DNA of 48,201 nucleotides from a virus (IMGVR_UViG_3300039307_000397:1-48201); one strand, 5' to 3'. Counted from the first letter of the stretch, positions 13,502-40,470 are shown. Translations and numbers: made by a program. The notes: a model not told the origin generated them from the letters alone.

Positions 13502-13569
13502 AAATGGCCCAAGGCCATTTCTGGTCTTGAGCCATTGCTTGTTCCGCAAGTGCGGGGGCATGTCGCTCA
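13502..13569 (-). ncRNA. repeated leader RNA element, copy 1
   Basis: Order on the minus strand: GAGCGACATGCC box (5'), hairpin CCGC/GCGG with its own sequence, conserved GAACAAGCAATGGCTCAAGA block, then the terminator-like hairpin AAATGGCC/GGCCATTT with five T bases. TTGAGC at the 5' end can pair with GCTCAA of the terminator arm (6 bases), giving an alternative fold. The block reads as a short peptide beginning MAQDQKWPWAI, with GCGG before it as a possible ribosome site. The gene at 13482 starts about 20 bases further on. Confidence 0.75.
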
Positions 13570-13582
13570 ACTTCTGCTCTTC

Positions 13583-13611
13583 ATTTTGAACGCATTATTG
13601 CTTGGTGACAA
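13583..13611 (-). promoter_or_regulatory. sigma70-like promoter for RNA element 1
   Basis: Minus strand TTGTCA, 17-base spacer, CAAAAT. The element's 5' box starts 14 bases beyond the -10. The -10 matches four of six consensus bases. It lies in the gap after the 319-residue gene, so the element and the downstream genes may have their own transcript start. Confidence 0.5.
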
Positions 13612-13641
13612 TCCTTTTTTTGATGCGCGATAGTGAGGGTA

Positions 13642-14601
13642 TTATTCGTAAACCACAGTGGCATCCCATGTTCCGGTGGAAACAATCGTCAATCCATTCA
13701 CAAAAGCCGTGTCATATTCAAGCGTGACCGGATTGGCCTGAGCCGGGGTATTGATTTCGGCAATCACTGTTCCTGATCCTGCCGTGTTGTCATACATCGT
13801 AATCAAAGTTCCGCCTGGGTTATTCAGAGTAATTCTGTGCAGAGTTCCTGCCCCGTATTTAATAACAGTTGTTGCTGCTGTTGTGACGTGCGCAGAAGTC
13901 GGCTGTGTTTCAAACTTTCCCGCACGAAAAATCGAAGACGCCCAAGAAGAAATAGCGCAATTTGTTGTTAAACCGCTTGAATTAACAGTATCCATCCAGA
14001 CATACATGTTATAGATGTTTGTCCATGGAGTTGTATTAAACGTAAGAGTATGTGCAACAACGCCATTTATTTCAAAATTTACAAGACTAGGCCGCATCTG
14101 AATGCGCCATATATTAGCATTGGTAAGCGTTGGTACAGTTTGGACGCCGTTCCATGACGTACTTACAACTGCCGTTTCTACTCCGCCCTTCATTGTGGCC
14201 ACATATAACGATGTACCGTCTAGCTTAAAATAGGCACCGTCTGTTCCCGCATTCATTCCTCCCCATCGCCGTACGTTGTTTACCACGCCTGTGTCGCTTA
14301 AATAAATTTGCGATCCATAGAGATTAAGCGTTTGGCCAATGTATCGTGCAATCGCTTTGCTAGAAGAAATGGCAGAGCTATTCGCCGTAATTCCTGTTGC
14401 CGCAGTTTGTATGCCATTGCTCTGCGTTACTGTTCCGCTACCAACGACTGTTGACGTCCAAAAATTGCTGTCAACGGTAGATCCGGGGAAAATTCCTCCT
14501 GCTAACCGAATGGGTTCTACGGTGCGCATCTCTTGATTTGGAGTTGCCGCCACAAGATTGCCGTAAATATCGATGACTTCTGTTTGCTTCCAGTAGCTCA
14601 T
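13642..14601 (-). CDS. tail fibre or appendage protein, candidate
   Basis: A 319-residue protein rich in Thr, Ser, Asn and Gly with alternating hydrophobic patterns typical of beta-structured phage fibres. The middle part (about residues 95-215), with YFKLDGTSLYVATMKGG and FEINGVVAHTL, resembles a concanavalin/lectin-like jelly roll as seen in carbohydrate-binding tail proteins; the last 90 residues form another beta-rich domain. GGAGGGTGT precedes the ATG. It follows another fibre-like gene by 12 bases and precedes RNA element 1. A glycan-binding role fits but is not proven. Confidence 0.6.
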   Translation of the reverse strand: MSYWKQTEVIDIYGNLVAATPNQEMRTVEPIRLAGGIFPGSTVDSNFWTSTVVGSGTVTQSNGIQTAATGITANSSAISSSKAIARYIGQTLNLYGSQIYLSDTGVVNNVRRWGGMNAGTDGAYFKLDGTSLYVATMKGGVETAVVSTSWNGVQTVPTLTNANIWRIQMRPSLVNFEINGVVAHTLTFNTTPWTNIYNMYVWMDTVNSSGLTTNCAISSWASSIFRAGKFETQPTSAHVTTAATTVIKYGAGTLHRITLNNPGGTLITMYDNTAGSGTVIAEINTPAQANPVTLEYDTAFVNGLTIVSTGTWDATVVYE

Positions 14602-14613
14602 ACACCCTCCGCA

Positions 14614-15660
14614 CTACAGAATAATCCAGTTTGTGCCATTGCTCATCACTACCAAATTTTCCCATTGGATAATCGGTTGTGTCGAATTACCGTCAATTGT
14701 TTGGCTCGACGTCGTCGCCACGGTAATAGTTCCAGTTCCAGAGTTTTTAATGGAATAAATTTGCCCAGTTACGCCTACGGCGGTTGGCAGCGTAATTGTA
14801 AAAGAATTAGCAGTACATTCAACCTGATAATCTGTTGCCGTCATCGTGTAGTTCGCAGTTTTTGCCGTATAAGGATACAGCGGAATTTGCGAAAACGACG
14901 CAACTCCAGAGATGTCTGTGAACGCAGGCTGCGATAGTTGCGGCACACCAGACAAATTAATTGAGTTAATCCACTCGTGGGCAATAGGCGCAACAGCTTC
15001 GATAATTCCTAGCGTGGTATACGTAGCAGTCGGCACCGAAATCACGCCCGATGATATTTTGATTGTTGTGCCATCTGGTTTAACTAGGCCAAATTGAGTC
15101 AGCGTCGCAATCGGAACCAGATCCGCCCAAAAATTTGTTCCATCGTAAACAACTGTAGCAGCACAATTTTGAGCGACGGGCATAGACGCAGCAGTAAGAT
15201 TTTCCCGGTAAGAAATCGTTCCGTCGATTGGAGTCAGTGTTGCTGTTCCAGCCCCAAAGTTGAGAAAACTTACATACCAAGGAAGAGTAATTGCCGGCGA
15301 AGATGAAGCAACGCTTAGCGTAATGGCAATCGGAGAAGCATCATCTAGGATGATGAACTTTGCATAATCCGATTGCAACGTCGTATAGGCCGTCACCCCT
15401 GTTTGATCATTTACATAACCGATCGTTGTCGTTGCAGTGTTGGTAACAACTGTTTGCGTCCCTGTGGACGTACTGGTCGACGTACTCGAAGTTGTTGTCG
15501 TCGTTGTTGCAGACGTCAACTGGCTTTTCAAAGACGCAACAGCTTGGTTCAAGTCAAGAATTCCCTGGTAGGCATTGCGATGCGCAGCCTTTGCGCCATC
15601 GCTTTCATTGGCAATCTCCGTTTCAAACGGATAACGAAATGACTCCAGATTGACTGTCAT
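14614..15660 (-). CDS. tail fibre protein, candidate
   Basis: A 348-residue beta-rich protein. Residues 1-48 are a short helical start; residues about 50-70 are almost pure Thr/Ser, a flexible linker typical of fibres. A middle segment has FGLVKPDGTTIKISSGVISV, a shaft-like repeat common in tail fibres, and the C-terminal domain, with YTMTATDYQVECTANSFTI then TLPTAVGVTGQ, resembles the knob domain of many phage fibres. The ATG overlaps the stop of a small zinc-ribbon gene (ATGA). It is the upstream partner of the 319-residue appendage gene. Confidence 0.68.
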   Translation of the reverse strand: MTVNLESFRYPFETEIANESDGAKAAHRNAYQGILDLNQAVASLKSQLTSATTTTTTSSTSTSTSTGTQTVVTNTATTTIGYVNDQTGVTAYTTLQSDYAKFIILDDASPIAITLSVASSSPAITLPWYVSFLNFGAGTATLTPIDGTISYRENLTAASMPVAQNCAATVVYDGTNFWADLVPIATLTQFGLVKPDGTTIKISSGVISVPTATYTTLGIIEAVAPIAHEWINSINLSGVPQLSQPAFTDISGVASFSQIPLYPYTAKTANYTMTATDYQVECTANSFTITLPTAVGVTGQIYSIKNSGTGTITVATTSSQTIDGNSTQPIIQWENLVVMSNGTNWIIL

Positions 15661-15773
15661 TTTTGCTTAGCCTTCCAGATCGTGCATGCAGGGCACAAAC
15701 CGCTGGGCGGTGGAACGAGTTGAATTGCCCCACAGCGTTTGCATCGTCGCTCAGAAACCGTAATTTTTCCCAC
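15657..15773 (-). CDS. tiny zinc-ribbon protein
   Basis: A 38-residue protein with CKRC and CPAC pairs spaced 14 residues apart, a minimal zinc ribbon. A GTG start at 15773 is inferred: it follows GGAGG by 7 bases and stands one base after the stop of the 1263-residue tail gene, and the stop overlaps the fibre start by ATGA. Such tiny metal-binding proteins are common between phage structural genes; function unknown. The longer frame upstream lies inside the big tail gene and is not used. Confidence 0.6.
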   Translation of the reverse strand: MGKITVSERRCKRCGAIQLVPPPSGLCPACTIWKAKQK

Positions 15774-15774
15774 T

Positions 15775-18700
15775 TTATCCACCTCCTCCGCTTTCGACAA
15801 AGGGCTGCAACTCTTTGTACTCTCCTGTTGATCCCCAATCCTTTGCTTGCACGACAAAACCTTCCACGTTGAGTTGGAACGGAACTGTGGAAGTAAACTT
15901 GAACCACAACAGCTTCCACTTGCTTGGGCCGCAAACAAGTTTCAACTTTGTCAGTGCTCCCCCCGACGAAGGAATCGTGATCGCCGGTGGACCGTAACTG
16001 TTGTTGTCCGCATCCGCCGCATAGCCCGTCAACGTAATGGTAGAGCTGGATGAATATTCAACGATTAAAACCGGCCCCAACGTCTGCCATCCTTTTCCGC
16101 CGATTGCAGGAGTCAACACAATGGCCGTTCCGGTTTCCGTACCACCGCTGGCCAATTGCCGAATTGTTCCATCGTTGCAACCAACCAGAACTCCCTGTTG
16201 GCTCAATCCTTCGTTTGCTGCATGGATCGTCACTGGCCATTCGTATACGTCCCACACCCATCCCTTCGAAACAATGTCGTAAACAAGGGTGTGCGGATTT
16301 CCATCCGTTCCGACGTAGTCGTAATACATATATCCGTTTTGAATGCTGAACTTTTGCAAATTTGGCAGCGAATCGTCGGGCGGATAAATCGTTACGCCTT
16401 CCCGCGTCACTGGCTGCGGTATGCTAGTACCACCATCCTCATCCTCATGCGGAAAAAGCGATTCCAAATCCTGATCTGTAATCGACTGGGATGCCCCTCC
16501 CCCAGGCGAGACGTGAATTCCATCATCTACGCGAAAGAAGATCAGCCCTCCGCCTTCGATTGCCACGCAGCGAGGAATAAACAATCCGCGGTTTACGCTT
16601 GTAGCTTGCAAAGTCCAGGTCGATCCGGTGGTCCCCGTTACAGTGGCAAGCGCATTGAAAAAGTTGGGCATGATCACCCAAGCACGCCGAATCGAAAACA
16701 GCACTCCTCTACCACCGGACATCGCGCCGTTGACCAGCGGTTCGCTTGGATCAGTCACATCCAACTGGTTGGTGTCTGGTGCCGCATCAAGATTCGATCC
16801 AGCGCACCAGTAAAGCGTTCCTGGACGCAACGGATCACCAACGCCAAACGTGTAATTAATGTTGTCCGTAGGCCCAAAAAGATACGGCATCGGCTGATTG
16901 GCGAGGATCGGTTCTGAAATTTCGTAGGCCAGATTAGTTCCATCAGGAACGCCCGGAATCGTGATCTGATCAACAAAACCAGTAGGAACGACGATTCCCT
17001 TATCCGTAAACGTCACATTACCGCTGACCGTCGTGCCACCTGAAGTGCTAAAAGTCGGGATTGAACTTCCCGAGGTTCCCGCTGCCGTGACAAGCTGGTA
17101 ATGACCATTGGAATCCAGAATCACCCAATTCAATGCGTAGGCAGTCAAAGTCGCAAAGGAACTGGCCGTAGGCCGCGCAATCAACGTGTAGGCCAGCGAC
17201 GTCGGAGAGCCAATCCGGATGATCGTTCCCGACAGCCAGCGTGTATTGAATCCAGTGGCTGTTCCTCCAATGGCTCCTCCACTGACCCAAGTAATTACGC
17301 TTCCTGAAACCGTGCAGATACCTTTTTGAGACAGATCAATCGACGGAAAAGGCTCATAGTTGGAATAAACAAGTAAATCGGAACCCAGTTCTGTATCCGT
17401 CAAAGAATCCGTAACGGGGGTATTTGTTCCACTACCTCCGAGGTCATCATTTGGCCCAGTGCAAACATACGTATAAGTTGTAATTGCGGAATCAACACGA
17501 TAGTAATCAACTTTGTCTACTTGGGGATCGTTGGACCAAAGCGACGTGACGGTATTTGAAGTAACAGGAACGGCTTCTGCAGTTGATCCGGGTGATGGAT
17601 TGGAGATTGCTCCCGTGGCGCTAGAGCGATAGACATAGCGGTATTGGACTTCCTCTCTGACGGTGGAGCTGAGCGGCGGGACAATTGTCGGAGTAGCTCC
17701 AGGAGTTGGAGATACCATTAAAAGCAAGATTCGGCCAGAGTGGTACCAAAAGTCGTAGTCAATTTCAATCGTGTGAATTGCGGCTGCTGAAAAGTGCAGG
17801 ACCAAAGTCGTAATTGTGCATTGACCGCCCTGATTGTAATAAGTGCTGCCAAATTTCAACGGCGCAACGGGAAGAAGAGCAATACCGCTCACCACCGAAA
17901 TGGTTTGGCCATACGATGAAATTTGTGTATTGCTCAAAGTAGCAGTTCCTGCAACTGTTTGTTCGTTGCCTGTCATGTACGTTGCAGTAGCAGAAACAAT
18001 AGTGGGGCTTCCGCTGATGCCCCACATTACCTGGTCTTTGCTAGTCAAAACAAAAGTGTAGTTTCCTGCTGCCGGAATATAAATGCTCCCAGTCAGGCAA
18101 AAATTAAAATTTGTGTACGTCGTGTTAGTCGTGTATGTCGACGTAATTGGAGACGCAAAAACGGAATTTGTACCGTTGGCAGCACTTTCCGCTGTCAGTT
18201 GAGTCCAAGCCATTGCTGTCGTTGTGTCGCTATTGCCACTGGTAATGTCTACGCCAGGCAATCCAGGGATACCGGCTGCAAGTGCTGGAATTGCCGCTGG
18301 ACCAAACGATGCATCGAAAATAAACGAATTTCCTGTTGTGCTTCCGTCCGCATTGGAGGTTGAACGGATTGGCCCTGAACCCCCAGAATCACTTGAGTTC
18401 TTCCAGATGTAAGTGCCTGTTTGTCCAGATGTCGGAGAATCTCCCCAGTAATAAAGTGTCAACGTGCCAAGAATGGAAACAACCGATGGCAATGCATCTG
18501 TTGTCACCGTTACTGTAATGCTGAAAGATCCAGAGTTGTTGCTAAAAGTGTTTCCTGTTGAGTTAATGCCAACTTGGAAAGATACGGCCGACGAAGGAAT
18601 AGTAATTGCCACACCCAGCGTTCCGCCCACATCCACAATGTTTTTTCTGTAGAGTGGAGCCACGCCAGCAGCAATTACATTTCCGCTTCCATCCGTAAAT

Positions 18701-19566
18701 GCCCCAATAATGATCGATGGAGTCGTCAAGGGAGGCGAAACTCCGCCTGTAGGCTGCACATAGTAGCCAGGGTTGGTTGAAGCCAGCGTCGGCCCAGTTG
18801 CTGTTGGAGTTGTGACAGTATTTCCGTTAATGATTACCGTGCCGGTTGGATTCGGAATGGTAATTGTTAACGTAGTAGCATTTTTAACGTTGATCGTATA
18901 CGGCGCAGTTCCGTCAACAGGAGGCGTGGTATTTGGGTACCCCTCTGTTTCACCGTAATCAAAGTTTGAGTTTGTTCCTGTTGGATAGTTTGTCCAAGGA
19001 ATTGCCGTAGCAAAGAGTGTTCCAGTTGTCGTAACGCTGGAATTTTCTGTGGAAACTGACGGAGCAAGCTGCGGCTCCTTGATGCCCATCTTGTAAACAA
19101 CACCATCCGAACGAACTTTCATCATTCCGTTGGATGGAAAGTCAACAGCAGTATGACCACCGCTATTGTTGGTAATCAAATATTCTGTATCAAGAGTGAC
19201 GTTTCCCTGTTCAGCCGAATCGCCTACATACATCCATGGCTGAACAGAAGTATTTGGGCGGAAAGGAATCATGGAAACGGGATTGCCACTTAATCCTGTC
19301 GCCACGACTGTGCTACCAGCATATAAAGTGGTTCCAGCACCGTTGATAAGCGCATAACCACTCGATGGTCCATTGGGCGTGGAATCGTTCAGGCGTCGAA
19401 TTGTATGGACGGCAGCAGAAAGCGTGTAAAGCGCCGTCGTCAGCAAATTGCGAAAGTTGATGCTGCCGACGGAATAGGAACGGATATTTTGGGCAATCGT
19501 CACCCTGCCGCTAGGCACGCGGTTAATGGGATGAGTCAGATCCAAACCGTGGAATTCAAGCGCCAC
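15775..19566 (-). CDS. very large tail protein, with gp10-like C-terminal part and PA14-like insert (tentative)
   Basis: A 1263-residue beta-rich protein. The N-terminal 170 residues open FHGLDLTHPINRVPSGRVTI. A central part (about residues 490-620) resembles a PA14-type sugar-binding module: it has IYIPAAGNYTFVLTSKDQ, then DYDFWYHSGRILLLMV. The C-terminal 380 residues, including GVLFSIRRAWVIMPNFF and LVYDIVSKGWVWDVYEWP, resemble the beta-propeller head-to-tail stabiliser proteins of short-tailed phages such as P22 gp10. These are pattern likenesses only. A GTG at 19566 after GCGAGGGC is the likely start; the frame upstream to 19650 runs through RNA element 2, and the GGCGAGG by this start is complementary to the element's CCTCGCC. 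Confidence 0.65.
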   Translation of the reverse strand: MALEFHGLDLTHPINRVPSGRVTIAQNIRSYSVGSINFRNLLTTALYTLSAAVHTIRRLNDSTPNGPSSGYALINGAGTTLYAGSTVVATGLSGNPVSMIPFRPNTSVQPWMYVGDSAEQGNVTLDTEYLITNNSGGHTAVDFPSNGMMKVRSDGVVYKMGIKEPQLAPSVSTENSSVTTTGTLFATAIPWTNYPTGTNSNFDYGETEGYPNTTPPVDGTAPYTINVKNATTLTITIPNPTGTVIINGNTVTTPTATGPTLASTNPGYYVQPTGGVSPPLTTPSIIIGAFTDGSGNVIAAGVAPLYRKNIVDVGGTLGVAITIPSSAVSFQVGINSTGNTFSNNSGSFSITVTVTTDALPSVVSILGTLTLYYWGDSPTSGQTGTYIWKNSSDSGGSGPIRSTSNADGSTTGNSFIFDASFGPAAIPALAAGIPGLPGVDITSGNSDTTTAMAWTQLTAESAANGTNSVFASPITSTYTTNTTYTNFNFCLTGSIYIPAAGNYTFVLTSKDQVMWGISGSPTIVSATATYMTGNEQTVAGTATLSNTQISSYGQTISVVSGIALLPVAPLKFGSTYYNQGGQCTITTLVLHFSAAAIHTIEIDYDFWYHSGRILLLMVSPTPGATPTIVPPLSSTVREEVQYRYVYRSSATGAISNPSPGSTAEAVPVTSNTVTSLWSNDPQVDKVDYYRVDSAITTYTYVCTGPNDDLGGSGTNTPVTDSLTDTELGSDLLVYSNYEPFPSIDLSQKGICTVSGSVITWVSGGAIGGTATGFNTRWLSGTIIRIGSPTSLAYTLIARPTASSFATLTAYALNWVILDSNGHYQLVTAAGTSGSSIPTFSTSGGTTVSGNVTFTDKGIVVPTGFVDQITIPGVPDGTNLAYEISEPILANQPMPYLFGPTDNINYTFGVGDPLRPGTLYWCAGSNLDAAPDTNQLDVTDPSEPLVNGAMSGGRGVLFSIRRAWVIMPNFFNALATVTGTTGSTWTLQATSVNRGLFIPRCVAIEGGGLIFFRVDDGIHVSPGGGASQSITDQDLESLFPHEDEDGGTSIPQPVTREGVTIYPPDDSLPNLQKFSIQNGYMYYDYVGTDGNPHTLVYDIVSKGWVWDVYEWPVTIHAANEGLSQQGVLVGCNDGTIRQLASGGTETGTAIVLTPAIGGKGWQTLGPVLIVEYSSSSTITLTGYAADADNNSYGPPAITIPSSGGALTKLKLVCGPSKWKLLWFKFTSTVPFQLNVEGFVVQAKDWGSTGEYKELQPFVESGGGG

Positions 19567-19583
19567 GCTGCCCTCGCCTGATA

Positions 19584-19657
19584 AAAACAGCAATGGCCCA
19601 AAACCATCGCTGGTCTTGAGCCATTGCTTGTTCGCCACTGGGCGAGGCATGTTGCTC
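19584..19657 (-). ncRNA. repeated leader RNA element, copy 2
   Basis: Minus strand order: GAGCAACATGCC box, hairpin TCGCC/GGCGA, GAACAAGCAATGGCTCAAGA block, long hairpin AGCAATGGCTCAA with TTGGGCCATTGCT (one G-U), then TTTTT. The loop and stem match copy 3 closely. The box strand CCTCGCC (19641-19647) is the complement of GGCGAGG (19572-19578) around the ribosome site of the large tail gene. The peptide frame begins MAQDQRWFWAI and runs to a stop over the GTG start of the tail gene. Confidence 0.8.
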
Positions 19658-19697
19658 GATGACTTATTTTATGCTTTCCGTTGTTTTGTGCATACGC

Positions 19698-21029: not shown

Positions 21030-21032
21030 TCA

Positions 21033-21314: not shown

Positions 21315-21317
21315 CAC

Positions 21318-21575
21318 TTATCCTTTCGACATCGCGCGTTTGCGACTGCTGGTTTTTTTTGCGCCCGTTTTCTTTAAACCGCTCACTGCAATGCCTGGAA
21401 ACTTGCCATGAACTTTACGGCGTACAGCCGCCTTTTCCGCTGGCGATCCATGCTGGGACACGCGAGCAAGGGCATTTCTGGCATGTTTTACATCGTTGAT
21501 TGGATATCGCCGCCCTTTCAAGGCAAAGGCTTTTCCCGGAATCTTGTTTCGCTTTGCTGCAGTTAGTTTGGCCAT
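21318..21575 (-). CDS. small basic protein, unknown (leader RNA 3 target)
   Basis: An 85-residue Lys/Arg/Ala-rich protein starting MAKLTAAKRNKIPGKAFALK and ending KKTGAKKTSSRKRAMSKG. The middle part (DVKHARNALARVSQHGSPAE) looks like two short helices, so it may have a small fold with a basic tail; it resembles small phage proteins of the form F-A-x-P-x-x-R-x-Y-P-I-x-D-x-x-H-A-R-N-A-L-A-R. GAGGAG precedes the ATG. RNA element 3, with its own good promoter, ends about 25 bases upstream of the start. It is followed at once by another basic protein gene. Confidence 0.68.
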   Translation of the reverse strand: MAKLTAAKRNKIPGKAFALKGRRYPINDVKHARNALARVSQHGSPAEKAAVRRKVHGKFPGIAVSGLKKTGAKKTSSRKRAMSKG

Positions 21576-21597
21576 GCCGCACTCCTCTTACGCAAAA

Positions 21598-21673
21598 ACA
21601 GCAATGGCTCAAAACCATCGCTGGTCTTGAGCCATTGCTTGTTCTCCCTGCGTAGGGGAGGGCATGTTGCTCA
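21598..21673 (-). ncRNA. repeated leader RNA element, copy 3
   Basis: The best-formed copy. Minus strand: GAGCAACATGCC box, hairpin CTCCC/GGGAG, GAACAAGCAATGGCTCAAGA block, a perfect 13-base stem AGCAATGGCTCAA/TTGAGCCATTGCT with a loop, then GTTTTTG. TGAGC at the 5' end pairs with GCTCA of the terminator arm. The peptide frame reads MAQDQRWF and then stops inside the terminator, so it is a complete eight-codon frame with GGGAGA 7 bases before it. CATGCC and TACGC in the first hairpin are complementary to GGCATG and GCGTA around the downstream gene's start. Confidence 0.85.
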
Positions 21674-21686
21674 GTGATTCTGCATC

Positions 21687-21716
21687 ATTATGTTCGCAAT
21701 CATCTCTTGCTGACAA
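21687..21716 (-). promoter_or_regulatory. sigma70-like promoter for RNA element 3
   Basis: Minus strand TTGTCA, 18-base spacer, CATAAT. The 5' box of the element begins 14 bases beyond the -10, so the transcript should start at or just before it. Confidence 0.65.
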
Positions 21717-21894
21717 CTCTTTTCTGCCGTCCGCGCTTCTTTGCTTTACCCTTCTGTGGCCCGATTCGGCCTTCACGCCGCAAATAGCTTAAAAGAATTG
21801 CTTTTGCCTGCTTTTTGCTCCGTACAATCTTGCCGCCTTTTCCCGAGTGCAGCTTGTGCTTACGGAATTTTTTCATGACCTCGCTTGCTGGCAT
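21700..21894 (-). CDS. small basic protein with KQAxAI motif (DUF6496-like)
   Basis: A 64-residue very basic protein. KHKLHSGKGGKIVRSKKQA followed by KAILLSYLRREGRIG fits a widespread family of small phage/plasmid proteins in which a GK-rich loop is followed by a KQA-x-AI-x-LS helix; function of the family is not known to me. The ribosome site is an unusual run of seven G bases (CAAGGGGGGG) three bases before the ATG, and it is the perfect 10-base complement of the C-run in leader RNA element 4, so translation is very probably controlled by RNA structure. The tail ends in KKRGRQKRVVSKR. Confidence 0.72.
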   Translation of the reverse strand: MPASEVMKKFRKHKLHSGKGGKIVRSKKQAKAILLSYLRREGRIGPQKGKAKKRGRQKRVVSKR

Positions 21895-21897
21895 AAT

Positions 21898-21951
21898 CCC
21901 CCCCTTGAAAGAGCCATTGCTGTTTCCCTAACAAGGGGGGGCATGCTGCTC
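21898..21951 (-). ncRNA. repeated leader RNA element, copy 4 (short form)
   Basis: Minus strand: GAGCAGCATGCC box, a C-run, GGGAAACAGCAATGGCTC block, but no terminator hairpin; the ribosome site of the 64-residue gene follows directly. CCCCCCCTTG (21932-21941) and CAAGGGGGGG (21898-21907) are perfect complements, so two folds exclude each other: the C-run with GGG before the block, or with the ribosome site. The block would begin MALSRGGL instead of MAQDQ. This copy points to translation control rather than termination. Confidence 0.72.
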
Positions 21952-22048
21952 GCGTTAAGCCGTTGCGCGGTTGGTCAGGATTCACACCTGACAGGAGGCA
22001 TATTCCAAGATGGACCCCACGTTGCTCAAGGCACCACCGCGCAAGCCG

Positions 22049-22588: not shown

Positions 22589-22604
22589 ACCACTCCTCTG
22601 CTCG

Positions 22605-30494: not shown

Positions 30495-30503
30495 TCCATC
30501 CTC

Positions 30504-31736
30504 CTATGCCGAGAATCCAAAAGCGTAGCTTGAATGACGCGGTTGCACGTTATACAGATTGATGCCCAACCGCATAAACAGAGCGTCGATACTCACGTTG
30601 TTCGGCATCGGAGCGCGACGAAGACCAAAGTTCCAGCCCTTCTTGTTGGTCGGCCGAATCTTGAAGCTTTCCGGCTCGAGGAAGTAAATCACTTCCGAAG
30701 GCTGAATCGTGGTAACTGAAGGCAAACCAGAACCAGTCGGCGAAACTGCAACGTTCGCGCCGTTCTTGGTAAACTGCGGAGTCGTGAACGCCACGGTTGT
30801 CGTGCTCGATCCAACGCCATCAGCAAGGTTCGTATTGCCAGCCGCACCATTGGCCGGAGCCAACTCAATGTAGTTCTGAGCCTGTGCAGAGGGGGCCAGC
30901 GGATCGGCGTAAATATCCACGCCGTTGAAATTCAAGCCGTCCCATTTAATATCGTGCCGTGTGTTTGAAATATCACGACGCTGCGCATCAAGAGCAACAG
31001 CAATGGCTCGGAATCCAAAAACGTTGGTAATGCCCAACGTCGGATTGCCGCCCGTCACCTTGCACTGCGACCACAACTGCATCAAAGCAGCAAAATCAAT
31101 CTGTCCTGTGCCGCCAGCGGACGTGCCAAGATAAAGCGGCGTCGAGTTCAGCGCAGTTCCGATATTTCCATTGCGCGCCTGACCACCGTAGTTCGTGTAA
31201 ATGTTGCCGTACACGGACGGATCAATACCGTTATTCAGCGCTTCATCAAGGCCGTTGATGGTCTTGATGCGGTTATCAGAAATCGTGGTGGCAGAGGCTT
31301 GGCCGTGACGGAACGAATCCATCTCCTGCATGGTATTCATGGTCATCACCATGGCTTCCATGTAGAGCTGGTATTCGTCGACAATCTTCGACGGACCGGA
31401 GTTAATCACGCCACCGGTGCCGGAACCGTCATCCATCTCCCAGTCATCCAGCGGATACCAGGTGGCATACGCCTTCGGCAGGAACTTGATGCCGGTGTTG
31501 ATCTGCTGGCGAGTCACAGTGACGGTCTGGCCGGGATTCACAGCAGCGCCCTGCGTGCGCCCGTAGAGAATACCTTCCATCATGCCAGCGCCGCCGAGGA
31601 ATTCATCCCACACGCCGGCTCGGCGGAGTTTCGCCTGGAAAGGAGTGTCCACGAAGAGGTTATTAAAAACTACATTCTTGCGGACGCTTTCGAGATTACT
31701 CGCATCTATCTCATTATAAAGGGGATCTGTTGGCAT
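30504..31736 (-). CDS. major capsid protein
   Basis: A 410-residue protein with the profile of a major capsid protein: KNVVFNNLFVDTPFQAKLR near the start, GQTVTVTRQQINTGIKFLPK, a long central segment with YMEAMVMTMNTMQEMDSFRH, and the typical end PNNVSIDALFMRLGINLYNV. It lies downstream of the scaffold gene and upstream of decoration-like genes, in the usual order. There is no recognisable ribosome site (GCTGAAACCATC before the ATG), which is odd for the most abundant virion protein. The upstream homing endonuclease gene ends 12 bases before, and its insertion may have changed the translation signal. Confidence 0.85.
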   Translation of the reverse strand: MPTDPLYNEIDASNLESVRKNVVFNNLFVDTPFQAKLRRAGVWDEFLGGAGMMEGILYGRTQGAAVNPGQTVTVTRQQINTGIKFLPKAYATWYPLDDWEMDDGSGTGGVINSGPSKIVDEYQLYMEAMVMTMNTMQEMDSFRHGQASATTISDNRIKTINGLDEALNNGIDPSVYGNIYTNYGGQARNGNIGTALNSTPLYLGTSAGGTGQIDFAALMQLWSQCKVTGGNPTLGITNVFGFRAIAVALDAQRRDISNTRHDIKWDGLNFNGVDIYADPLAPSAQAQNYIELAPANGAAGNTNLADGVGSSTTTVAFTTPQFTKNGANVAVSPTGSGLPSVTTIQPSEVIYFLEPESFKIRPTNKKGWNFGLRRAPMPNNVSIDALFMRLGINLYNVQPRHSSYAFGFSA

Positions 31737-31748
31737 GATGGTTTCAGC

Positions 31749-32369
31749 TTAGGCAATGGCTACGATCTTTTGTGCCGGTACCTGGCGCTGCTCCTTTCGA
31801 GTTTTTCTCCACTGCTGGGTTGCGATCCGACGTTTCTCCATCCACGCCGGATCTTGAGATTTCTGTTGGTAATAGGCATCACGGTACTTCGCACGTTTTG
31901 CAGCACTCTTGTTACGGCGTGCATCAGTGAAGCGTTGTACTGTCGCGCAAAAAATCTGATACCGGTCGGATGGACCATCTGCGTTGTTCAACACAAGCAA
32001 ATCGCTTGCATAGTCCAGAAAAGTTCTTACCGAGGTTGAATCAATCTGCGCTTTACGGCGCGCAGTAAGAAATGGGTAAATCGTTCCAAGAAAAGCTCTT
32101 GCTCTGTCACCGCAAATTGCCCAGCAATAGCACTGAAATCTGCGTTGATCTCCGACGTTGTAAAGCTTGATTCCACCGCCGAAAAAGTCTCGCAACCGAT
32201 AAAGCAACTCAGGGTCTTTTTGCGTAACTGTGACGGAGAAAGATTTTCCTTTCGTCCCGCTAGCAACGCAGCTTCCTTCGCCTTCATAAATTCCTGCAGC
32301 CCAAGCAACATCCAAGGCTGTTGGAGTCTTTGTGGCGTCGAGCCCCGGTTTGTCTTTGCAAACGATCAT
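31749..32369 (-). CDS. free-standing LAGLIDADG-type homing endonuclease
   Basis: A 206-residue protein. AAGIYEGEGSCVASGTKG near residues 24-41 is a single LAGLIDADG motif, and KSFSVTVTQKDPELLYRLRD then FFGGGIKLY is the usual beta-sheet and helix region. Single-motif proteins act as dimers. The long basic C-terminal helix (about residues 130-190) probably contacts DNA. It stands between scaffold and major capsid genes, a known site for such selfish genes. AAGGGA precedes the ATG at 32369; a GTG or ATG at 32399 would lie inside RNA element 5. The stop is 12 bases before the capsid start. Confidence 0.8.
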   Translation of the reverse strand: MIVCKDKPGLDATKTPTALDVAWAAGIYEGEGSCVASGTKGKSFSVTVTQKDPELLYRLRDFFGGGIKLYNVGDQRRFQCYCWAICGDRARAFLGTIYPFLTARRKAQIDSTSVRTFLDYASDLLVLNNADGPSDRYQIFCATVQRFTDARRNKSAAKRAKYRDAYYQQKSQDPAWMEKRRIATQQWRKTRKEQRQVPAQKIVAIA

Positions 32370-32394
32370 GTAATTCCCTTCTTCTCCCGAAAAT

Positions 32395-32460
32395 AGCAAT
32401 GGCCCAAGCCATTGCTAGGCTTGAGCCATTGCTTGTTCCCTTGCGGGGGGCATGCGTCTC
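32395..32460 (-). ncRNA. repeated leader RNA element, copy 5
   Basis: Minus strand: GAGACGCATGCC box, hairpin CCC/GGG around CGCAA, GAACAAGCAATGGCTCAAG block, then AGCAATGGCTCAAG paired with CTTGGGCCATTGCT and a TATTTT tail. Here the 3' half differs from other copies (CCTAGC in place of GACCAG) and the stem has changed on both sides, keeping the pairing. The peptide frame is only MAQA. The element precedes the homing endonuclease gene rather than a basic-protein gene. Confidence 0.75.
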
Positions 32461-32491
32461 GACTAATCTTCACAACACACAACTGCAAAAA

Positions 32492-33496: not shown

Positions 33497-33517
33497 TTTC
33501 TGTTCTCTCCCGAAGCG

Positions 33518-33838
33518 TTAGTATTGCGGTTGCTGGCCCATCGGTGTCGGCTGCGGCGGACTTACCAAAGCCGTTTGCATTTCTTGAATTCCCTGAGAAA
33601 CCTTCTCAGCGCCCGAGGCAAGACGAGGGTCAGAAGCAGCCATTTGCTTAGCTGTCTGATACCAACGCGCAAGCAACATCTGCATTGGATTCGCAGGAGC
33701 TTGCGAAGGGGGGCCTTGCTGCGGAGTATTTTGATCAGGAGGAGGAGTAGCGCCCTGCGGCGGAGCACCAGCTCCCTGATCGGGAGGCGGTGCGCCTTGT
33801 TCCTGACCTTGCGGCATTGGTTGAGAAGCTGTAGCCAT
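33518..33838 (-). CDS. Pro/Gln-rich small protein, virion assembly associated
   Basis: A 106-residue protein. Residues 1-50 are disordered, Pro- and Gln-rich (QEQGAPPPDQGAGAPPQGAT), residues 52-90 form a helix (NPMQMLLARWYQTAKQMAAS), and the last residues are again Pro/Gln-rich. Similar small proteins stand between portal and scaffold genes in many phages and may be scaffold-associated. AGGAG precedes the ATG. Function is unknown. Confidence 0.55.
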   Translation of the reverse strand: MATASQPMPQGQEQGAPPPDQGAGAPPQGATPPPDQNTPQQGPPSQAPANPMQMLLARWYQTAKQMAASDPRLASGAEKVSQGIQEMQTALVSPPQPTPMGQQPQY

Positions 33839-33861
33839 TACTGAATCTCCTAATTTGAGAT

Positions 33862-33890
33862 CCCCAACGGCAGCATAGCTACCGTTGGGG
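33862..33890. other. strong hairpin between two small genes
   Basis: CCCCAACGG and CCGTTGGGG form a perfect nine-base stem around an 11-base loop, in the gap between the tiny basic gene and the Pro/Gln-rich gene. No T-run follows on either strand, so it is not a standard terminator; it may protect or process the mRNA between the two genes. Confidence 0.55.
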
Positions 33891-33898
33891 AAAGGTAA

Positions 33899-34006
33899 CT
33901 ACGCCTTGATGGCGCTCCGCTTGCCGCGACCCTTGCGGCCACGACCCTTGCGACCCTTTTTCAGGTGGCTGACCTTCACTGCGCTTGCCTTGCGACGCTT
34001 TGCCAT
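33899..34006 (-). CDS. tiny Lys/Arg-rich protein (leader RNA 6 target)
   Basis: A 35-residue protein of more than one-third Lys/Arg, starting MAKRRKASAVKVSHLKKGRK then GRGRKGRGKR and ending SAIKA. It looks like a protamine-type polycation. AAGGAGG precedes the ATG at 34006 and is strong; CCAAGGAGG of that site is the perfect nine-base complement of CCTCCTTGG in the upstream RNA element 6. Expression should thus be high but gated. The transcript starts at a near-consensus promoter at 34117-34145. Function is unknown; DNA condensation or virion DNA binding is a guess. Confidence 0.65.
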   Translation of the reverse strand: MAKRRKASAVKVSHLKKGRKGRGRKGRGKRSAIKA

Positions 34007-34030
34007 GGTGTTCCTCCTTGGATGCAAAAT

Positions 34031-34100
34031 AGAAATGGCCCAAGGCCATTTCTGGTCTTGAGCCATTGCTGATTCCCCAAGGAGGGGGGGCATGCCGCTC
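34031..34100 (-). ncRNA. repeated leader RNA element, copy 6
   Basis: Minus strand: GAGCGGCATGCC box with a C-run, hairpin CCCC-TCCTT-GGGG, GGGAATCAGCAATGGCTC block, then the hairpin AAATGGCC/GGCCATTT and CTATTTTG. The loop word CCTCCTTGG (34077-34085) is a perfect nine-base complement of the ribosome site CCAAGGAGG (34013-34021). TTGAGC can pair with GCTCAA. The peptide frame MAQDQKWPWAISI runs on in frame to the start of the basic protein and through it. Confidence 0.82.
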
Positions 34101-34116
34101 AAAAGATTCTGATAGA

Positions 34117-34145
34117 GCTATAGGCCGAATTTTTTTTCACGTCAA
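34117..34145 (-). promoter_or_regulatory. strong sigma70-like promoter for RNA element 6
   Basis: Minus strand TTGACG, 17-base spacer that is A-rich, TATAGC. The RNA element's 5' box starts 16 bases beyond. TTCGG lies just before the -10, as in the promoter of element 7. Confidence 0.7.
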
Positions 34146-34154
34146 GTGTTATTT

Positions 34155-34394
34155 TTACAAAACTGTTTCGCCTACATCCAGAATCTTGCGAATTTCTGCC
34201 GCTTGAGCATCAGAAATCTTAGTGCGCTGCTCTAGGTTGACCCCTTGCACGGAACCTTGGTTGTACTGGACGACCATTTTTCCAGTTGTTCTTGTTGCCT
34301 GCAGTAACTCGTTCACCTGCTGAATGTCAGTAGGTAATTCAACGCTTACTTCAGTCTGGTAGTAGTCTTTTTGAACTTTGATTTGGACTGCCAT
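34155..34394 (-). CDS. small protein, unknown, downstream of portal
   Basis: A 79-residue protein starting MAVQIKVQKDYYQTEVSVEL and ending AEIRKILDVGETVL: two beta strands, then helices. No family is recognised. It follows the portal gene by nine bases and AAGGAG precedes its ATG. It is probably made with the portal and could be a small assembly factor. The next 50 bases downstream carry the promoter of RNA element 6. Confidence 0.55.
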   Translation of the reverse strand: MAVQIKVQKDYYQTEVSVELPTDIQQVNELLQATRTTGKMVVQYNQGSVQGVNLEQRTKISDAQAAEIRKILDVGETVL

Positions 34395-34403
34395 GTCGTC
34401 TCC

Positions 34404-36476: not shown

Positions 36477-36562
36477 AGATCACCGTTTCCCTGCTCGGTG
36501 AGTTATTGAGCTATTGCGCATAGTAGGCAAATTTCACTTACACGTCTACGCTAATTTCACAC

Positions 36563-36581
36563 AGCGTAAGTTATGCGCAAT
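36563..36581 (+). promoter_or_regulatory. operator-like site GCGTAA-N4-TGCGCAA, copy 1
   Basis: AGCGTAAGTTATGCGCAAT in the gap before the portal gene. The same word, AGCGTAA then four bases then TGCGCAAT, appears on the minus strand at 43456-43474, and a close variant at 43406-43424. The gap also holds the mirror-like CTACGCTAATTTCACACAGC, so it may be a repressor or activator target for the portal transcript. Confidence 0.55.
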
Positions 36582-36971
36582 CTAATGCCCCTTTTCGTAT
36601 GCTTCGGAATGAAGATAGCTTTCACGGCGCATTCTTGTTTTGTCAGGCCGATTGTCATACGCTTCCAAGTGCCGCCGTAAGAACTCGCGGTTTAAGTTAT
36701 TTCGCGCATTTGCCATCAAATGCTGAATGTGATGGCGTAAGTTTGCTCTCAAACGATCTTCAATCTCTGCGCGTTCATCGTCCTTCATCTGTTCTCGGAT
36801 GGCTTCTTGTCCCCGCATTTTTTGTGACCATTGCTCTGCCTCATGCGCGGTATTGCACACAATTTTTTCGTGCAAATACGGAGCTGGAAATTCTTCAGGT
36901 AAGCCCATCTTGATTTCGCCTGAAAGCGTATCAAGCCAAAAAACGATTTTTCTGCTTAATTGTGCGTTCAA
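36582..36971 (-). CDS. small basic/acidic protein between terminase and portal, unknown
   Basis: A 129-residue protein. I infer a TTG start at 36971: its bases overlap the terminase TGA (TTGA) and GGGAGG lies six bases before. The GTG at 37007 is an alternative but lies far inside terminase. The protein starts (after Met) with KIVFWLDTLSGEIKMGLPEE, a beta-hairpin, then has a highly charged helical part (residues 45-105, EAIREQMKDDERAEIEDRLR and MANARNNLNREFLRRHLEAY), and ends RRESYLHSEAYEKGH. Such proteins often stand between terminase and portal and may be head or packaging cofactors. Confidence 0.6.
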   Translation of the reverse strand: MNAQLSRKIVFWLDTLSGEIKMGLPEEFPAPYLHEKIVCNTAHEAEQWSQKMRGQEAIREQMKDDERAEIEDRLRANLRHHIQHLMANARNNLNREFLRRHLEAYDNRPDKTRMRRESYLHSEAYEKGH

Positions 36972-39900
36972 TCGAGTCCTCCCACAGACATCATGTTTGT
37001 AGAGCACACGGCTTTACTCAGCGGCGGCACTTTCTCCGTTGGCAACGCGTAGCGTTTTTGTGATCTTTCTGCAAGAATGTCGAAGTCATGCGCAGTAAAG
37101 AAAGATTGCGCCGCAGCGCGCACACGATCATCATGCTGGCCGCTGCGATGCTCCATCTTGGAGATTCTGCCAGCCGCTGCATGCCGTTCCAACGTTTTTA
37201 ATTCTTCAATCAACCAGCGCGATGCCGGGCGATACCAGCCACCATTTACAGCTTCGGTAAAGCGCGTCATCAAGATTGGCACGCTCCACACGTTTGAAAA
37301 CCAACCTTGCTTTTTGCCAGCATCATCTTTGATTTTTTTGCTGTCGTAGCGTCGCGGAATATGATGCCAATGAAAGCCCATCAGCTTTAATTGGTGCTGG
37401 CATGTATCGCCAGGTCTTCCAATCTGCTCTACGCAAAACTTTACTCCGCGCGAATCTTTTGAATTTTCTCCATACCAGGCAGCAATGCAAGCCGCAAATC
37501 CGACAACCTGCGCAGAGTTGATGCGGTTCGATACCAGCTCTGCCACCTGATAGTCATATTCATCTCCAAAGCGATTGCGTGTCACCGATACGCAGGTTCT
37601 GTCTTCATCCTCTTTGCCAAGTCCATCAGCCGTATCGATTCCGCAGCTGTAGGTGTACCCACGCTTGGGCTCTTCATATACCAAGAGCTTGTCAAAAGTC
37701 TCTTGCTCTACATCTTCATCAAAAGGAAGAAGCGGAACAAGAACCCAGTCATAGCGCTGGCCGCGATCCGATTTCCAGCTCACGCGGATATGTGCCTTGT
37801 CGTAATCGATCAGCGGTTCTGGCGGTTCAAAACCATCGTCGATGGAGTCTCCAGTAATGGCGTACGCTTGTACTGGATTTTTTCTTTCTTTGGCGTTTCC
37901 TTTTACCTCATAGATGTGGTCTTCGATCTCCTGAATCGTTTCCACGTCAAACACACTGTCATGTACGCCTGTCAATGCTTCAAAGTCATCGGCTGGCATC
38001 TGCGCAAGCCAAATCTTTTGGCTGTGGTTCTTGCAGGATTTGGCAAAATTGAACTCCCAAAACCACTGCTGCTCCAGCGGCATCCGCCAATCTTTCCCAG
38101 CAATCCGCGACAAGAACGGCGTATTGCGGATGTAGGACTCCGCGCGGATCACATGCTTGCGCGTTGCCTCCATGCGCTTTTGGTAAAAGCCTTCTGGAAC
38201 CGGGAACTGGCGAATCCATGCCGCTTCTGGATACAGATCCGTCGCCATAGGCCATGGGATAAACACGGGGCAAAGATCATGTAACCCCTTGGGAAAGTCT
38301 TCCTTTGCCGCGCGCCAGGTTTCAGCCAACCACCCAGTGTTTCCGCCACCAGTGCCTTCAAACACCATGAAAAGGTTGGGCGTAGCATGTGTGGCGCGTA
38401 ACAGACCTTCTTCAATCACCTTTTTGGGTTTGGGAATATCGGCCAGTTCTGACACGTGAATGCAGTTATGCACAGCGCATTGCATTGTTGCAAAAGAGTG
38501 TGTTGAATCAATAACTTCCACGTCATAGAACGATTCACTAAATCCGTCTTTGACGCTTTCAATTTTGATATCGATTGCTGAATCATCTTTGCTGTAATGC
38601 CAGTGACGCGCTTTTTCACTCGATGGAACATGCACAAGGCCGAATGCCATCCGGTAGCGATAGCCGCATGATCCCACCATCACAAGTTTCCAGGTCTCGT
38701 GCTTCTTTCCACCCCATGGTGATTGTTTTGCAGGCTCGCGGTAGATGGAAGCCCATCCAAAGCCAAGGGAAGCTACCAAGTCGCGCAGTTGCACAGTAAC
38801 GGCCTCGCAGACGCAAGGCGCAATGACCAAATTTGAATTTTTTTCGCAGTGACCATCGCCATCGAGATAGCCCTTCAAAAGGAAAAGGCAAAAGTCGCGA
38901 CCCGCAGTCCAAATCCAATCAGGGACATGCTTCTTGTACTTGCGACCAAAGTTCTCTGCTAACCAACGCGCAAGCCAAGCGCAAGAAACGCAAACCTGGG
39001 AGCCATTTTCTCCATGATCTTTGACATGCACGTGCTGGTCTTCGCCAAGAACTGCTTTGATTGCTGCTTCCGTACGTGCAGCTTCGCGACGATGCACTGT
39101 AAAAATTACTTCCGACAGATATGGTTTTTTGTTGGGCTTCCCCAATCCACTTTCATGACATGATCCTTCCGCCAGATAAAGCCCGGCCAAGTAGGCAACA
39201 GCCGGTGAATACGCCAGCTCAAATTCAATCGCATGCGCATCATCAATTTTTCCGCGCAGCATCTTCCGCAACGGCTCTCCGCTGTTTTCTGCGCGGATTT
39301 CGCGTACTGGATAGCGAACAAAATCCCCCGCAGTCAAGTCAGCGGCTTCGCGCCATCCGTCCGGTGTCCAAATGCGGTGATCGAGCGTTGTTTCTAGCGA
39401 CTCGTAGCATCCCCACGACTTGATGATGCGTGTTGGTTCGCCTTTCCGCGTTGTCTGGAAAGAGCACTTTACAGCAGCAAGTTGGCCATTAATCGTCAAG
39501 ACTTGATCGTTGGGAAGAAGATCTTCAATCGCCTTCATTCCGCCGTTAGCAACACGGATCAGCGAACCTTGCACAAGACACGTCGGCGTCCATCCTTGTG
39601 CAATGCCGGTTGCCTGCATGCCAGATTGAATCGAGAGAACCGATCCGTTATCAAAAGCGCCCTTCGGTAAGCGCCGTGGCACCAGCCACCATGGGCATTG
39701 ATTGTAGGCAATATCCAAGATGCGTCCGATCAGCTCGGATTTGTCCGACTGCACAGACGCCATCACGGCCTGCGTGTGCGGAATGAACAGCATGCGCTGA
39801 AGAAACTTCAGGGCGGTTTTTGTGGTGATGCCTACCTGTCGCGCTTTCAAGATCAGCAAACGGATAGCAACCTGCTGCTCGTCAAAGTCGGCAATTACAG

Positions 39901-40234
39901 AGTCAAAAACTTCCTGCGATTTTCGATTTTTAAATTTAAAAATTTCTCCGCCTTCGTTGCAGACGTAGGCGTAGCACTCGTCAAAGTAGTTGCTGTCGAG
40001 GCCGCACATGACTTGCTCGTTCTCGATCCACCGCCAGATTTCTTTGCGACGTTTTTCTGTAATCGTACGGACGAGAGAAATGTAGGAAGAGCGTGAGTTT
40101 GATTCGATTTTTACAATAGAGTCGATGTAGTGCTTGAATTCTTCTACCTGAGCAAACGTATGAGGGGTAGGCATCCACCCCTCACGCGCGGCAAACTTGT
40201 CCAGGTTCTGAATGATAATCTTTTCGGAATACAT
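36968..40234 (-). CDS. terL: large terminase subunit, interrupted by an intein
   Basis: A 1088-residue precursor; removal of residues 219-590 leaves a 716-residue terminase. The ATPase part has KARQVGITTKT (130-140) in place of a classical Walker A, and the segment after the intein (CIHVSELADIP, 591-601) is Walker B-like, with E596 as the likely catalytic acid. The nuclease part has D867 (GIDTADG), E936 (CVEQIG) and D1035/D1036 (HDDRVR), the expected metal-binding residues of the RNase H-like fold. The enzyme cuts and pumps DNA into the prohead. GAGGGCTGATGT precedes the ATG. It overlaps the next gene by TTGA. Confidence 0.9.
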   Translation of the reverse strand: MYSEKIIIQNLDKFAAREGWMPTPHTFAQVEEFKHYIDSIVKIESNSRSSYISLVRTITEKRRKEIWRWIENEQVMCGLDSNYFDECYAYVCNEGGEIFKFKNRKSQEVFDSVIADFDEQQVAIRLLILKARQVGITTKTALKFLQRMLFIPHTQAVMASVQSDKSELIGRILDIAYNQCPWWLVPRRLPKGAFDNGSVLSIQSGMQATGIAQGWTPTCLVQGSLIRVANGGMKAIEDLLPNDQVLTINGQLAAVKCSFQTTRKGEPTRIIKSWGCYESLETTLDHRIWTPDGWREAADLTAGDFVRYPVREIRAENSGEPLRKMLRGKIDDAHAIEFELAYSPAVAYLAGLYLAEGSCHESGLGKPNKKPYLSEVIFTVHRREAARTEAAIKAVLGEDQHVHVKDHGENGSQVCVSCAWLARWLAENFGRKYKKHVPDWIWTAGRDFCLFLLKGYLDGDGHCEKNSNLVIAPCVCEAVTVQLRDLVASLGFGWASIYREPAKQSPWGGKKHETWKLVMVGSCGYRYRMAFGLVHVPSSEKARHWHYSKDDSAIDIKIESVKDGFSESFYDVEVIDSTHSFATMQCAVHNCIHVSELADIPKPKKVIEEGLLRATHATPNLFMVFEGTGGGNTGWLAETWRAAKEDFPKGLHDLCPVFIPWPMATDLYPEAAWIRQFPVPEGFYQKRMEATRKHVIRAESYIRNTPFLSRIAGKDWRMPLEQQWFWEFNFAKSCKNHSQKIWLAQMPADDFEALTGVHDSVFDVETIQEIEDHIYEVKGNAKERKNPVQAYAITGDSIDDGFEPPEPLIDYDKAHIRVSWKSDRGQRYDWVLVPLLPFDEDVEQETFDKLLVYEEPKRGYTYSCGIDTADGLGKEDEDRTCVSVTRNRFGDEYDYQVAELVSNRINSAQVVGFAACIAAWYGENSKDSRGVKFCVEQIGRPGDTCQHQLKLMGFHWHHIPRRYDSKKIKDDAGKKQGWFSNVWSVPILMTRFTEAVNGGWYRPASRWLIEELKTLERHAAAGRISKMEHRSGQHDDRVRAAAQSFFTAHDFDILAERSQKRYALPTEKVPPLSKAVCSTNMMSVGGLD
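38465..39580 (-). mobile_element. intein (Hint plus LAGLIDADG) in the terminase gene
   Basis: Residues 219-590 of the terminase precursor, 372 residues. The first residue is Cys (CLVQGSLIRVANGGMKAIED, block A), block B is near 282-290 (TTLDHRIW), two LAGLIDADG motifs are at 349-359 (LAGLYLAEGSC) and 453-463 (LKGYLDGDGHC), block F is near 569-577 (FYDVEVIDS), and it ends in HN (589-590) before Cys 591 of the extein. All catalytic positions for splicing are present, so it should be active, and the endonuclease looks complete. It is inserted just before the Walker B strand, a preferred intein site. Confidence 0.92.
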
Positions 40235-40247
40235 CAGCCCTCATGAG

Positions 40248-40361
40248 CTAGCCCTTAACGGCAATCGTTTTGCTGGCTCTCTTACCGAGCTTTTTCACAT
40301 GCTTTGTGTTCTTTCTCAGGTGTTCCAGTTTGGTATTGGAAACAGCCTTGAATTTTGCCAT
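40248..40361 (-). CDS. tiny Lys-rich protein (leader RNA 7 target)
   Basis: A 37-residue protein: MAKFKAVSNTKLEHLRKNTK then HVKKLGKRASKTIAVKG. It shares the start MAK and the HL-[RK]-K pattern with the tiny protein at 33899 (MAKRRKASAVKVSHLKKGRK), so the two may be diverged duplicates. AAGGAGG precedes the ATG at 40361. The stop stands 14 bases before terminase. RNA element 7 and a promoter at 40486-40512 stand upstream. Confidence 0.65.
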   Translation of the reverse strand: MAKFKAVSNTKLEHLRKNTKHVKKLGKRASKTIAVKG

Positions 40362-40394
40362 GACGTTCCTCCTTGGGGGTATGCAGCGGCCTGG

Positions 40395-40470
40395 AAAACA
40401 GAAATGGCCCAGGAGCCATTTCTGGTCCTGAGCCATTGCTTGTTCCCGCAAAGCGAGGGGCATGTGTCTC
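40395..40470 (-). ncRNA. repeated leader RNA element, copy 7
   Basis: Minus strand: GAGACACATGCC box, hairpin CTCGC/GCGGG with one G-U pair, GGAACAAGCAATGGCTCAGG block, hairpin AATGGCTCAGG/CCTGGGCCATT and TCTGTTTT. Both sides of the terminator stem have changed relative to other copies (CAGG/CCTG for CAAG/CTTG), a compensatory exchange. The peptide frame is MAQDQKWLLGHFCF and runs into the basic gene in frame. Confidence 0.8.

Follow-up and report, generated by a model that had tools for sequence, protein, structure and literature searches.

A multicopy family of candidate two-state RNA leaders matched to the ribosome-binding sites of phage late genes

Phage late genes are switched on by new sigma factors, new polymerases, or Q-type protein antiterminators. 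The late promoter pR' of lambda is always active, and its transcripts are blocked at the early terminator tR' until Q appears; Q acts via a DNA site and at one promoter. In T4, the Shine-Dalgarno (SD) sequences of genes e, soc, 49, and I-TevI are hidden in an RNA helix, from which they escape by means of a late RNA that starts inside the helix (PMC3014915). The put RNA of HK022 consists of two stem-loops that contact RNA polymerase, and it acts over kilobases (PMC9378689). Here, we describe seven related RNA leaders on the minus strand of an IMG/VR virus record (IMGVR_UViG_3300039307_000397; 48,201 bases, all of which is referred to as the window). Comparative sequence analysis and predicted folding suggest, at a probability of about 0.68, that these leaders are two-state cis-acting attenuators of phage late genes.

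A sequence-only reading of the window had proposed seven related minus-strand elements, each just upstream of a gene of a different type. A covariance model (CM) built on 54 distinct copies recovered exactly these seven on that strand, and each of them adjoins a start codon (Table 1; copies are named below after the 5' end of the box). Six leaders scored 82 to 95 bits and the terminator-less copy at 21951 scored 36 bits; weaker plus-strand matches of the model are reverse complements of terminator hairpins. The proposed common 5' box is exact in 7/7 copies. By itself, the box is not rare (9 matches at one mismatch versus 7.2 expected); the box together with the spaced block is rare, with 7 minus-strand matches and none for a reversed-pattern control, and a plus-strand pattern match at 21573-21610 corresponds to a terminator arm in reverse complement. 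The shared block, GAACAAGCAATGGCTC, is exact in five of the seven copies and differs by 2 bases in those at 21951 and 34100. A terminator-like hairpin is present in six copies, as predicted, and is missing from the one at 21951; a U-rich tract was likewise found in 6/7.

The leaders are 80 to 120 nt long and have a two-state design, in which the segments follow the order A (box), P2, B (block), C, D, U-tract, and E (SD sequence and start codon). Box A, GAG[CA]NNCATGC, and block B, GCAATGGCTC, are complementary, and the A-B helix (P1) encloses hairpin P2 and carries bulges of 2 to 3 nt on its 5' side and 1 nt on its 3' side. Block B doubles as the 5' arm of a long terminator hairpin with strand D, which in many close copies ends in a tetraloop of the GNRA type (CCA-GNRA-TGG; directly visible in the copy labelled A1). 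Segment C sits inside the B-D hairpin, and it can also pair with D alone. Since A-B and B-D share strand B, the two folds are mutually exclusive. Furthermore, the strand formed by A and P2 is complementary to the SD/start region E of the leader's own gene and changes along with it. The elements of the sequence-only reading were right, but it had missed the pairing of box with block, the use of the block as a terminator arm, and the match of the variable hairpin to the downstream SD sequence.

Pair counts for both alternative folds exceeded those of shuffled and slid controls. In the alignment of diverged copies, two-sided changes occurred at 14 of 20 pairs, versus 7.2 after shuffling and 3 to 7 after sliding. 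The covariation, already clear among close copies, gains strength in the diverged set, in agreement with the claim of selected RNA structure rather than recent copying, which the larger alignment did not refute. In a mutual-information scan of all column pairs in the 54 close copies, the top plausible pairs belonged to C-D (61-82), P2 (17-34 and 15-36), the long hairpin (59-64), and B-D (54-70). The exchange between CAAG/CTTG and CAGG/CCTG reported for the terminator was recovered at columns 54-70, with A-U in 35 sequences, G-C in 12, and G-U in 5. The first hairpin had been described as varying in sequence yet keeping its pairing, and two-sided changes at all four of its pairs among the 54 distinct copies bear this out; the picture was incomplete, since this hairpin is also matched to each gene's own ribosome-binding site.

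P1 is invariant in the close copies apart from C4, which are therefore uninformative on this helix. Among 27 diverged homologues, two-sided changes were found at six of nine P1 pairs, e.g., 1-71 (GC to UA), 8-66 (GC, AU, and UA), and 10-63 (GC, AU, and UA). Because the diverged alignment had been fitted to the model, a swap test on raw segments was added, in which the pairing energy of A with its own B was -7.40 versus -6.18 with swapped partners, and 2 of 10,000 permutations were as good (here and below, the permutations ignore shared descent and yield counts, not probabilities). For B-D, the values were -6.22 versus -3.61, with 0/10,000 as good, and the control pairing A-D was not significant (939/10,000). 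Examples visible by eye among the diverged leaders are UAGC...GCUA with GCGGCGGCU/AGCCGCCGC (L169) and CUAAC/GUAUAG with GCCUAUUU (L368). Several strands changed jointly, as a strand-exchange device would require. The leaders therefore have the hallmarks of an attenuator, namely, two exclusive helices with a strand in common, of which one is a terminator hairpin followed by a U-tract; covariation or swap tests back both helices.

These data also bear on a small-molecule riboswitch, in which P1-P2 would be an aptamer and a ligand stabilizing P1 would switch the late genes on. Its layout, in which the aptamer stem and the terminator have a strand in common, fits the leaders, and the P1 strands are almost invariant in close copies; nevertheless, P1 of diverged leaders changes freely with compensation, and the joining segment that follows P2 varies in length and sequence, leaving no conserved pocket. 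As the targets are in addition structural rather than metabolic genes, we consider a riboswitch quite unlikely.

C-rich strands suit any SD sequence, so the match between the A/P2 strand and E could be trivial, and swap tests were made for that reason. In these tests, a trivial C-rich match did not account for the result. With free swaps, the energy was -15.90 for own partners versus -14.06 (standard deviation, 0.25), and 0/5,000 permutations were as good; with swaps confined to orthologue groups (97 leaders with improved start codons), it was -15.91 versus -14.37 (standard deviation, 0.20; 0/10,000). The capsid-gene leaders alone gave -13.06 versus -11.80 (0/5,000), and the diverged leaders alone gave -12.35 versus -9.74 (0/10,000). 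The agreement among three partly independent swap sets is, in our view of these sequence comparisons, a stronger argument than the counts. Moreover, run length tracks between the two strands across phages, as in CCUUGG/CCAAGG, CCUUUGG/CCAAAGG, and CCUUUUGG/CCAAAAGG. In the window, the P2 strand CCTCCTTGG of leader 2, the copy most widely conserved among relatives, forms a 9-nt perfect match with its own SD sequence, CCAAGGAGG; in leader 4, the P2 strand CCCCCCCTTG pairs with the SD sequence CAAGGGGGGG of the DUF6496 gene (minimum free energy [MFE], -31.0 kcal/mol; probability that the SD is paired, 0.91); the own-SD energy of leader 5 has rank 0 of 96; and the box of leader 7 contains CATGCCC, complementary to GGGCATG at the start codon. 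A leader strand complementary to its own SD/start region and changing together with it, the mark of a translational SD-sequestering switch, is thus present. The pairings A-B, P2, B-D, C-D, and A/P2-E, as well as confinement to the late module, are established by comparison of the sequences.

A homing-endonuclease gene stands between leader 3 and the major capsid gene (Table 1); it matches PHROGs phrog_5046 HNH and, weakly, Pfam LAGLIDADG_3. In relatives without this insertion, the leader lies directly before the capsid gene. The own-match energy is -4.7 to -8.8 where the endonuclease gene is inserted, versus -9.7 to -19.0 for leaders directly before the capsid gene, which fits a leader adapted to the SD sequence of the capsid gene itself.

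Predicted folding agrees with two states. Prefixes ending at B fold as P1 plus P2 in 7/7 window leaders, and prefixes through D refold into the B-D hairpin in all six that have a terminator. At full length, the MFE fold pairs the SD/start region with A/P2 around the B-D hairpin in 6/7, counting the copy at 21951, in which B-D is absent and the SD sequence pairs directly with P2; this pairing is weak in the leader at 32460, which precedes the inserted endonuclease gene. Among diverged leaders, SD bases were paired to A/P2 in the MFE fold of 24/26. Relative to a fold in which P1 is forced, the resulting OFF fold of the window leaders gains 7 to 24 kcal/mol in stability (for leader 6, -53.0 versus -36.9 kcal/mol). 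Because this stable predicted fold holds both a terminator and a masked SD sequence, the default state would be OFF at two levels, transcription and translation.

We propose the following sequence of events. While only A to B has been transcribed, the RNA would adopt P1 closed by P2, an early, ON-type fold. Once D emerges, B would leave A to form the B-D hairpin followed by the U-tract, and transcription would terminate. In readthrough RNA, the freed A-P2 strand would pair with E and mask the ribosome-binding site, such that the OFF state would be a terminator hairpin nested within an SD-sequestering helix. If P1 were held, the terminator would be broken and E left free, and the gene would be ON at both levels. 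Termination at the hairpin, hiding of the SD sequence in vivo, and switching between the states are what we infer from these folds. A leader-peptide idea was rejected, since the AUGs of box and block lie in differing frames between copies and are lost in diverged copies.

The same order of prefix folds, P1 plus P2 first and then the terminator, would be expected of a timing device without any trigger, in which P1-P2 is a transient cotranscriptional fold whose lifetime, relative to the speed of polymerase or ribosome, sets a fixed low expression, and it is consistent with such a device that no conserved binding site was recognized. We find it hardly credible, for the same low level at seven to eight late genes is hard to square with the large demand for capsid protein.

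TTGAC, the core of a -35 box, occurs 39 to 48 nt upstream of the box in 29/66 nonredundant leaders (shuffled mean, 1.0), and a promoter-like pair, TTGACG and TATAAA separated by 17 nt, lies immediately upstream of leader 1. The motif precedes 25/30 leaders of small basic genes versus 1/11 capsid-gene leaders, suggesting that some leaders probably start their own transcripts, whereas others sit inside operons. As the TTGAC-type sequence lies upstream of strand A, an RNA started there would contain A. In one phage (L105), two leaders at 6962-7040 and 9772-9863 share 40 nt of identical upstream sequence and a near-identical P2 and have different terminators and SD sequences; from the sequence, a promoter-leader unit seems to have been duplicated or gene-converted recently.

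The position near promoters with a terminator directly after would also suit a put-like element, whose P1-P2 would bind RNA polymerase itself and render it resistant to this and later terminators. Yet put RNAs measure about 70 nt, comprise two stem-loops, and work over a distance (PMC9378689), whereas the leaders have one bulged hairpin that shares the terminator strand and whose P1 sequence is not conserved, and local competition suffices as an explanation. We regard this alternative as very unlikely. An RNA-processing signal deserves somewhat more weight but is still unlikely. The nested helix would then be a site of the RNase III type, like those of T7-like intergenic regions, and cleavage would give defined translatable late mRNAs with no switch. 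The stems of the OFF fold are indeed long and very stable (-42 to -58 kcal/mol across the window's six complete leaders), copies stand before many late genes, and the capsid-gene leaders, mostly lacking TTGAC, seem to lie within an operon. A processing hairpin, however, needs neither a U-tract nor an SD-matched strand, and A-B is kept by compensatory change though it is incompatible with the long helix.

What could hold P1 in the ON state of the proposed attenuator? The geometry of the bulged P1 is kept while its sequence changes, and there is no invariant loop, which together argue against a small-molecule pocket and for either a shape-reading protein or a purely kinetic device. Our tentative candidate is a phage-encoded RNA-binding antiterminator that would recognize the bulged P1 and release all seven to eight late units together. 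Somewhat more speculatively, the leaders may constitute a late-gene regulon of RNA switches, in which one phage factor acting on P1 lifts termination and ribosome-site masking simultaneously at the seven to eight units. We found no description of late-gene control by a regulon of this kind, doubtful as it still is, for any phage.

Several points count against the attenuator and its suggested trigger, in addition to the shared descent that the swap permutations ignore. No BglG/LicT-type RNA-binding domain (PF03123) was found in 12 related phage records, although it was detected in controls, and a host-encoded one is possible. A ligand, too, would be expected to have its pocket marked by an invariant loop, of which there is none. 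The U-tracts, e.g., UUUCUAUUUU, are short and contain interruptions, so that termination may be partial and its strength is uncertain. The C-D hairpin, which is also under selection, is terminator-like and forms alongside P1; hence, P1 may not fully prevent termination. Finally, little or no match to the own SD sequence is seen in the diverged leader L361 and in several leaders of endonuclease genes.

The family was found in soil and peat phages, most of the relatives being metagenome fragments. A pattern scan of IMG/VR returned at least 117 stretches, and most of those with a box are real. Loci retrieved by a capsid-protein search came from phages with 65 to 98% identity in this protein; strict copies occur in nearly all phages above 90%, and the CM detected diverged copies in most of the distant ones (down to about 66%), usually some 1.6 kb ahead of the capsid gene. 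In relatives of about 130 kb, the clear copies are confined to one strand of the late region, over roughly 33 to 37 kb: a 134-kb record has 8 sense-strand copies between 89 and 126 kb, and in a 133-kb record, 7 fall between 71 and 104 kb. Other records (39 to 89 kb) contain 5 to 8 copies, and more distant relatives of 120 to 140 kb have only 1 to 4 recognizable ones.

The family had not been recognized from the sequence alone, and no Rfam 15 model reached its gathering score on the window or on ten diverged loci; below threshold, only chance microRNA hairpins appeared (E, 0.04 to 10). Nor did we find a description of it in Rfam 15 or among the openly available papers searched, most subscription journals lying outside the search. 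A known mobile repeat was ruled out by the compensatory changes, the context-matched P2, and the late-strand confinement. In line with this, the model, run on 297 genomes belonging to the phylum of an Acidobacteria metagenome-assembled genome, matched one weak chance-like hairpin on a contig without phage genes, a pattern scan of bacterial genomes yielded scattered chance matches, none with the box, and blastn against INPHARED phages and plasmids yielded no convincing match. Judged by the capsid protein, Tunturiibacter phage Tunturi_1 is the closest relative in culture (27% identity); its host belongs to the Acidobacteriota (PMC11924767). Tunturi_1 lacks the leader, though it has a small basic open reading frame (ORF) at a similar place. 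Given this low identity and the missing element, an Acidobacteriota host for the window phage is only a lead. At the leader position before that ORF, Tunturi_1 has a plain terminator-like hairpin (5605-5740; CCCCTCCCCGTGAGGGG and then ATTATTTTTT).

Table 1. Leaders of the window and the genes that follow them
Leader	Position	Strand	5' box	Start codon	Downstream gene(s)	CM score (bits)	Remarks
1	40391-40470	-	40459-40470	40361	37-aa basic protein, then terminase large subunit gene 36968-40234 (-)	87 (model R1; E 2e-20, rough, from a short calibration)	A box 40460-40470, P2, B 40430-40439, terminator
2	34022-34100	-	34089-34100	34006	35-aa Lys/Arg-rich protein, 33899-34006 (-)	95	
3	32386-32460	-	32449-32460	32369	Homing-endonuclease gene 31749-32369 (-), then major capsid gene 30504-31736	82	
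4	21890-21951	-	21940-21951	21894	DUF6496 gene 21700-21894	36	Variant without terminator (P1 and P2, then SD)
5	21591-21672	-	21661-21672	21575	85-aa DUF6582-like gene 21318-21575	83	
6	19580-19657	-	19646-19657	19566 (GTG)	PA14-domain (PF07691) structural protein 15775-19566	90	
7	13491-13568	-	13557-13568	13482	196-aa gene 12892-13482	84	

Small Lys/Arg-rich proteins (32 to 42 aa; in the window, those after leaders 1 and 2) follow the most conserved leaders in all relatives and are possibly head or DNA-binding proteins. The terminase large subunit (1,088 aa) holds an intein, with a Hint start (CLVQGSLIRVANGG...), a LAGLIDADG-like domain, and an end in ...AVHN followed by C. Outside the late block, there are two glycosyltransferase genes, of group 1 and family 9, at 1044-2381 (plus strand) and 44837-46084 (minus strand).

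If the proposed mechanism is true, a set of scattered RNA leaders, each adjusted to the ribosome-binding site of its own gene, would represent a further solution to late-gene control, and a trans-acting factor would be predicted in phages of largely uncultured soil bacteria, perhaps Acidobacteriota. The leaders would also offer a compact natural dual-control switch of transcription and translation, with many natural variants for studying the coevolution of anti-SD and SD sequences.

Compared with described systems, the leaders look like a new RNA family that employs known principles in an unusual multicopy, gene-matched arrangement, as if a protein-controlled attenuator were combined with an SD-masking leader. 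With lambda Q control, they would share a working logic, a constitutive-type promoter followed by an immediate terminator that has to be passed, but the signal here would be RNA and the units are many. BglG, SacY, and LicT act at RAT hairpins, which resemble P1-P2 in being short, bulged antiterminator hairpins that share a strand with an intrinsic terminator; RATs, however, have no SD-matching strand, whereas these leaders serve phage late genes in seven to eight copies. Translational and transcriptional riboswitches (e.g., SAM-II dual-control leaders, PMC9373788) likewise have two exclusive folds, one of which contains a terminator or a masked SD sequence, yet the leaders have no conserved ligand core and no metabolic target genes, and they are not in Rfam. 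HK022 put is similar as a phage cis-acting RNA near transcript starts that is tied to termination control, but it matches the leaders in neither sequence nor architecture, since here the next hairpin shares a strand of the single bulged hairpin P1-P2. The T4 late leaders, too, mask the SD sequence or start codon of phage late genes in a helix. In T4, the position of the late promoter leaves the 5' strand of this helix out of the late RNA; in the leaders described here, the promoter-like sequence, where present, lies upstream of strand A, and, unlike T4, they carry a built-in terminator and an alternative stem.

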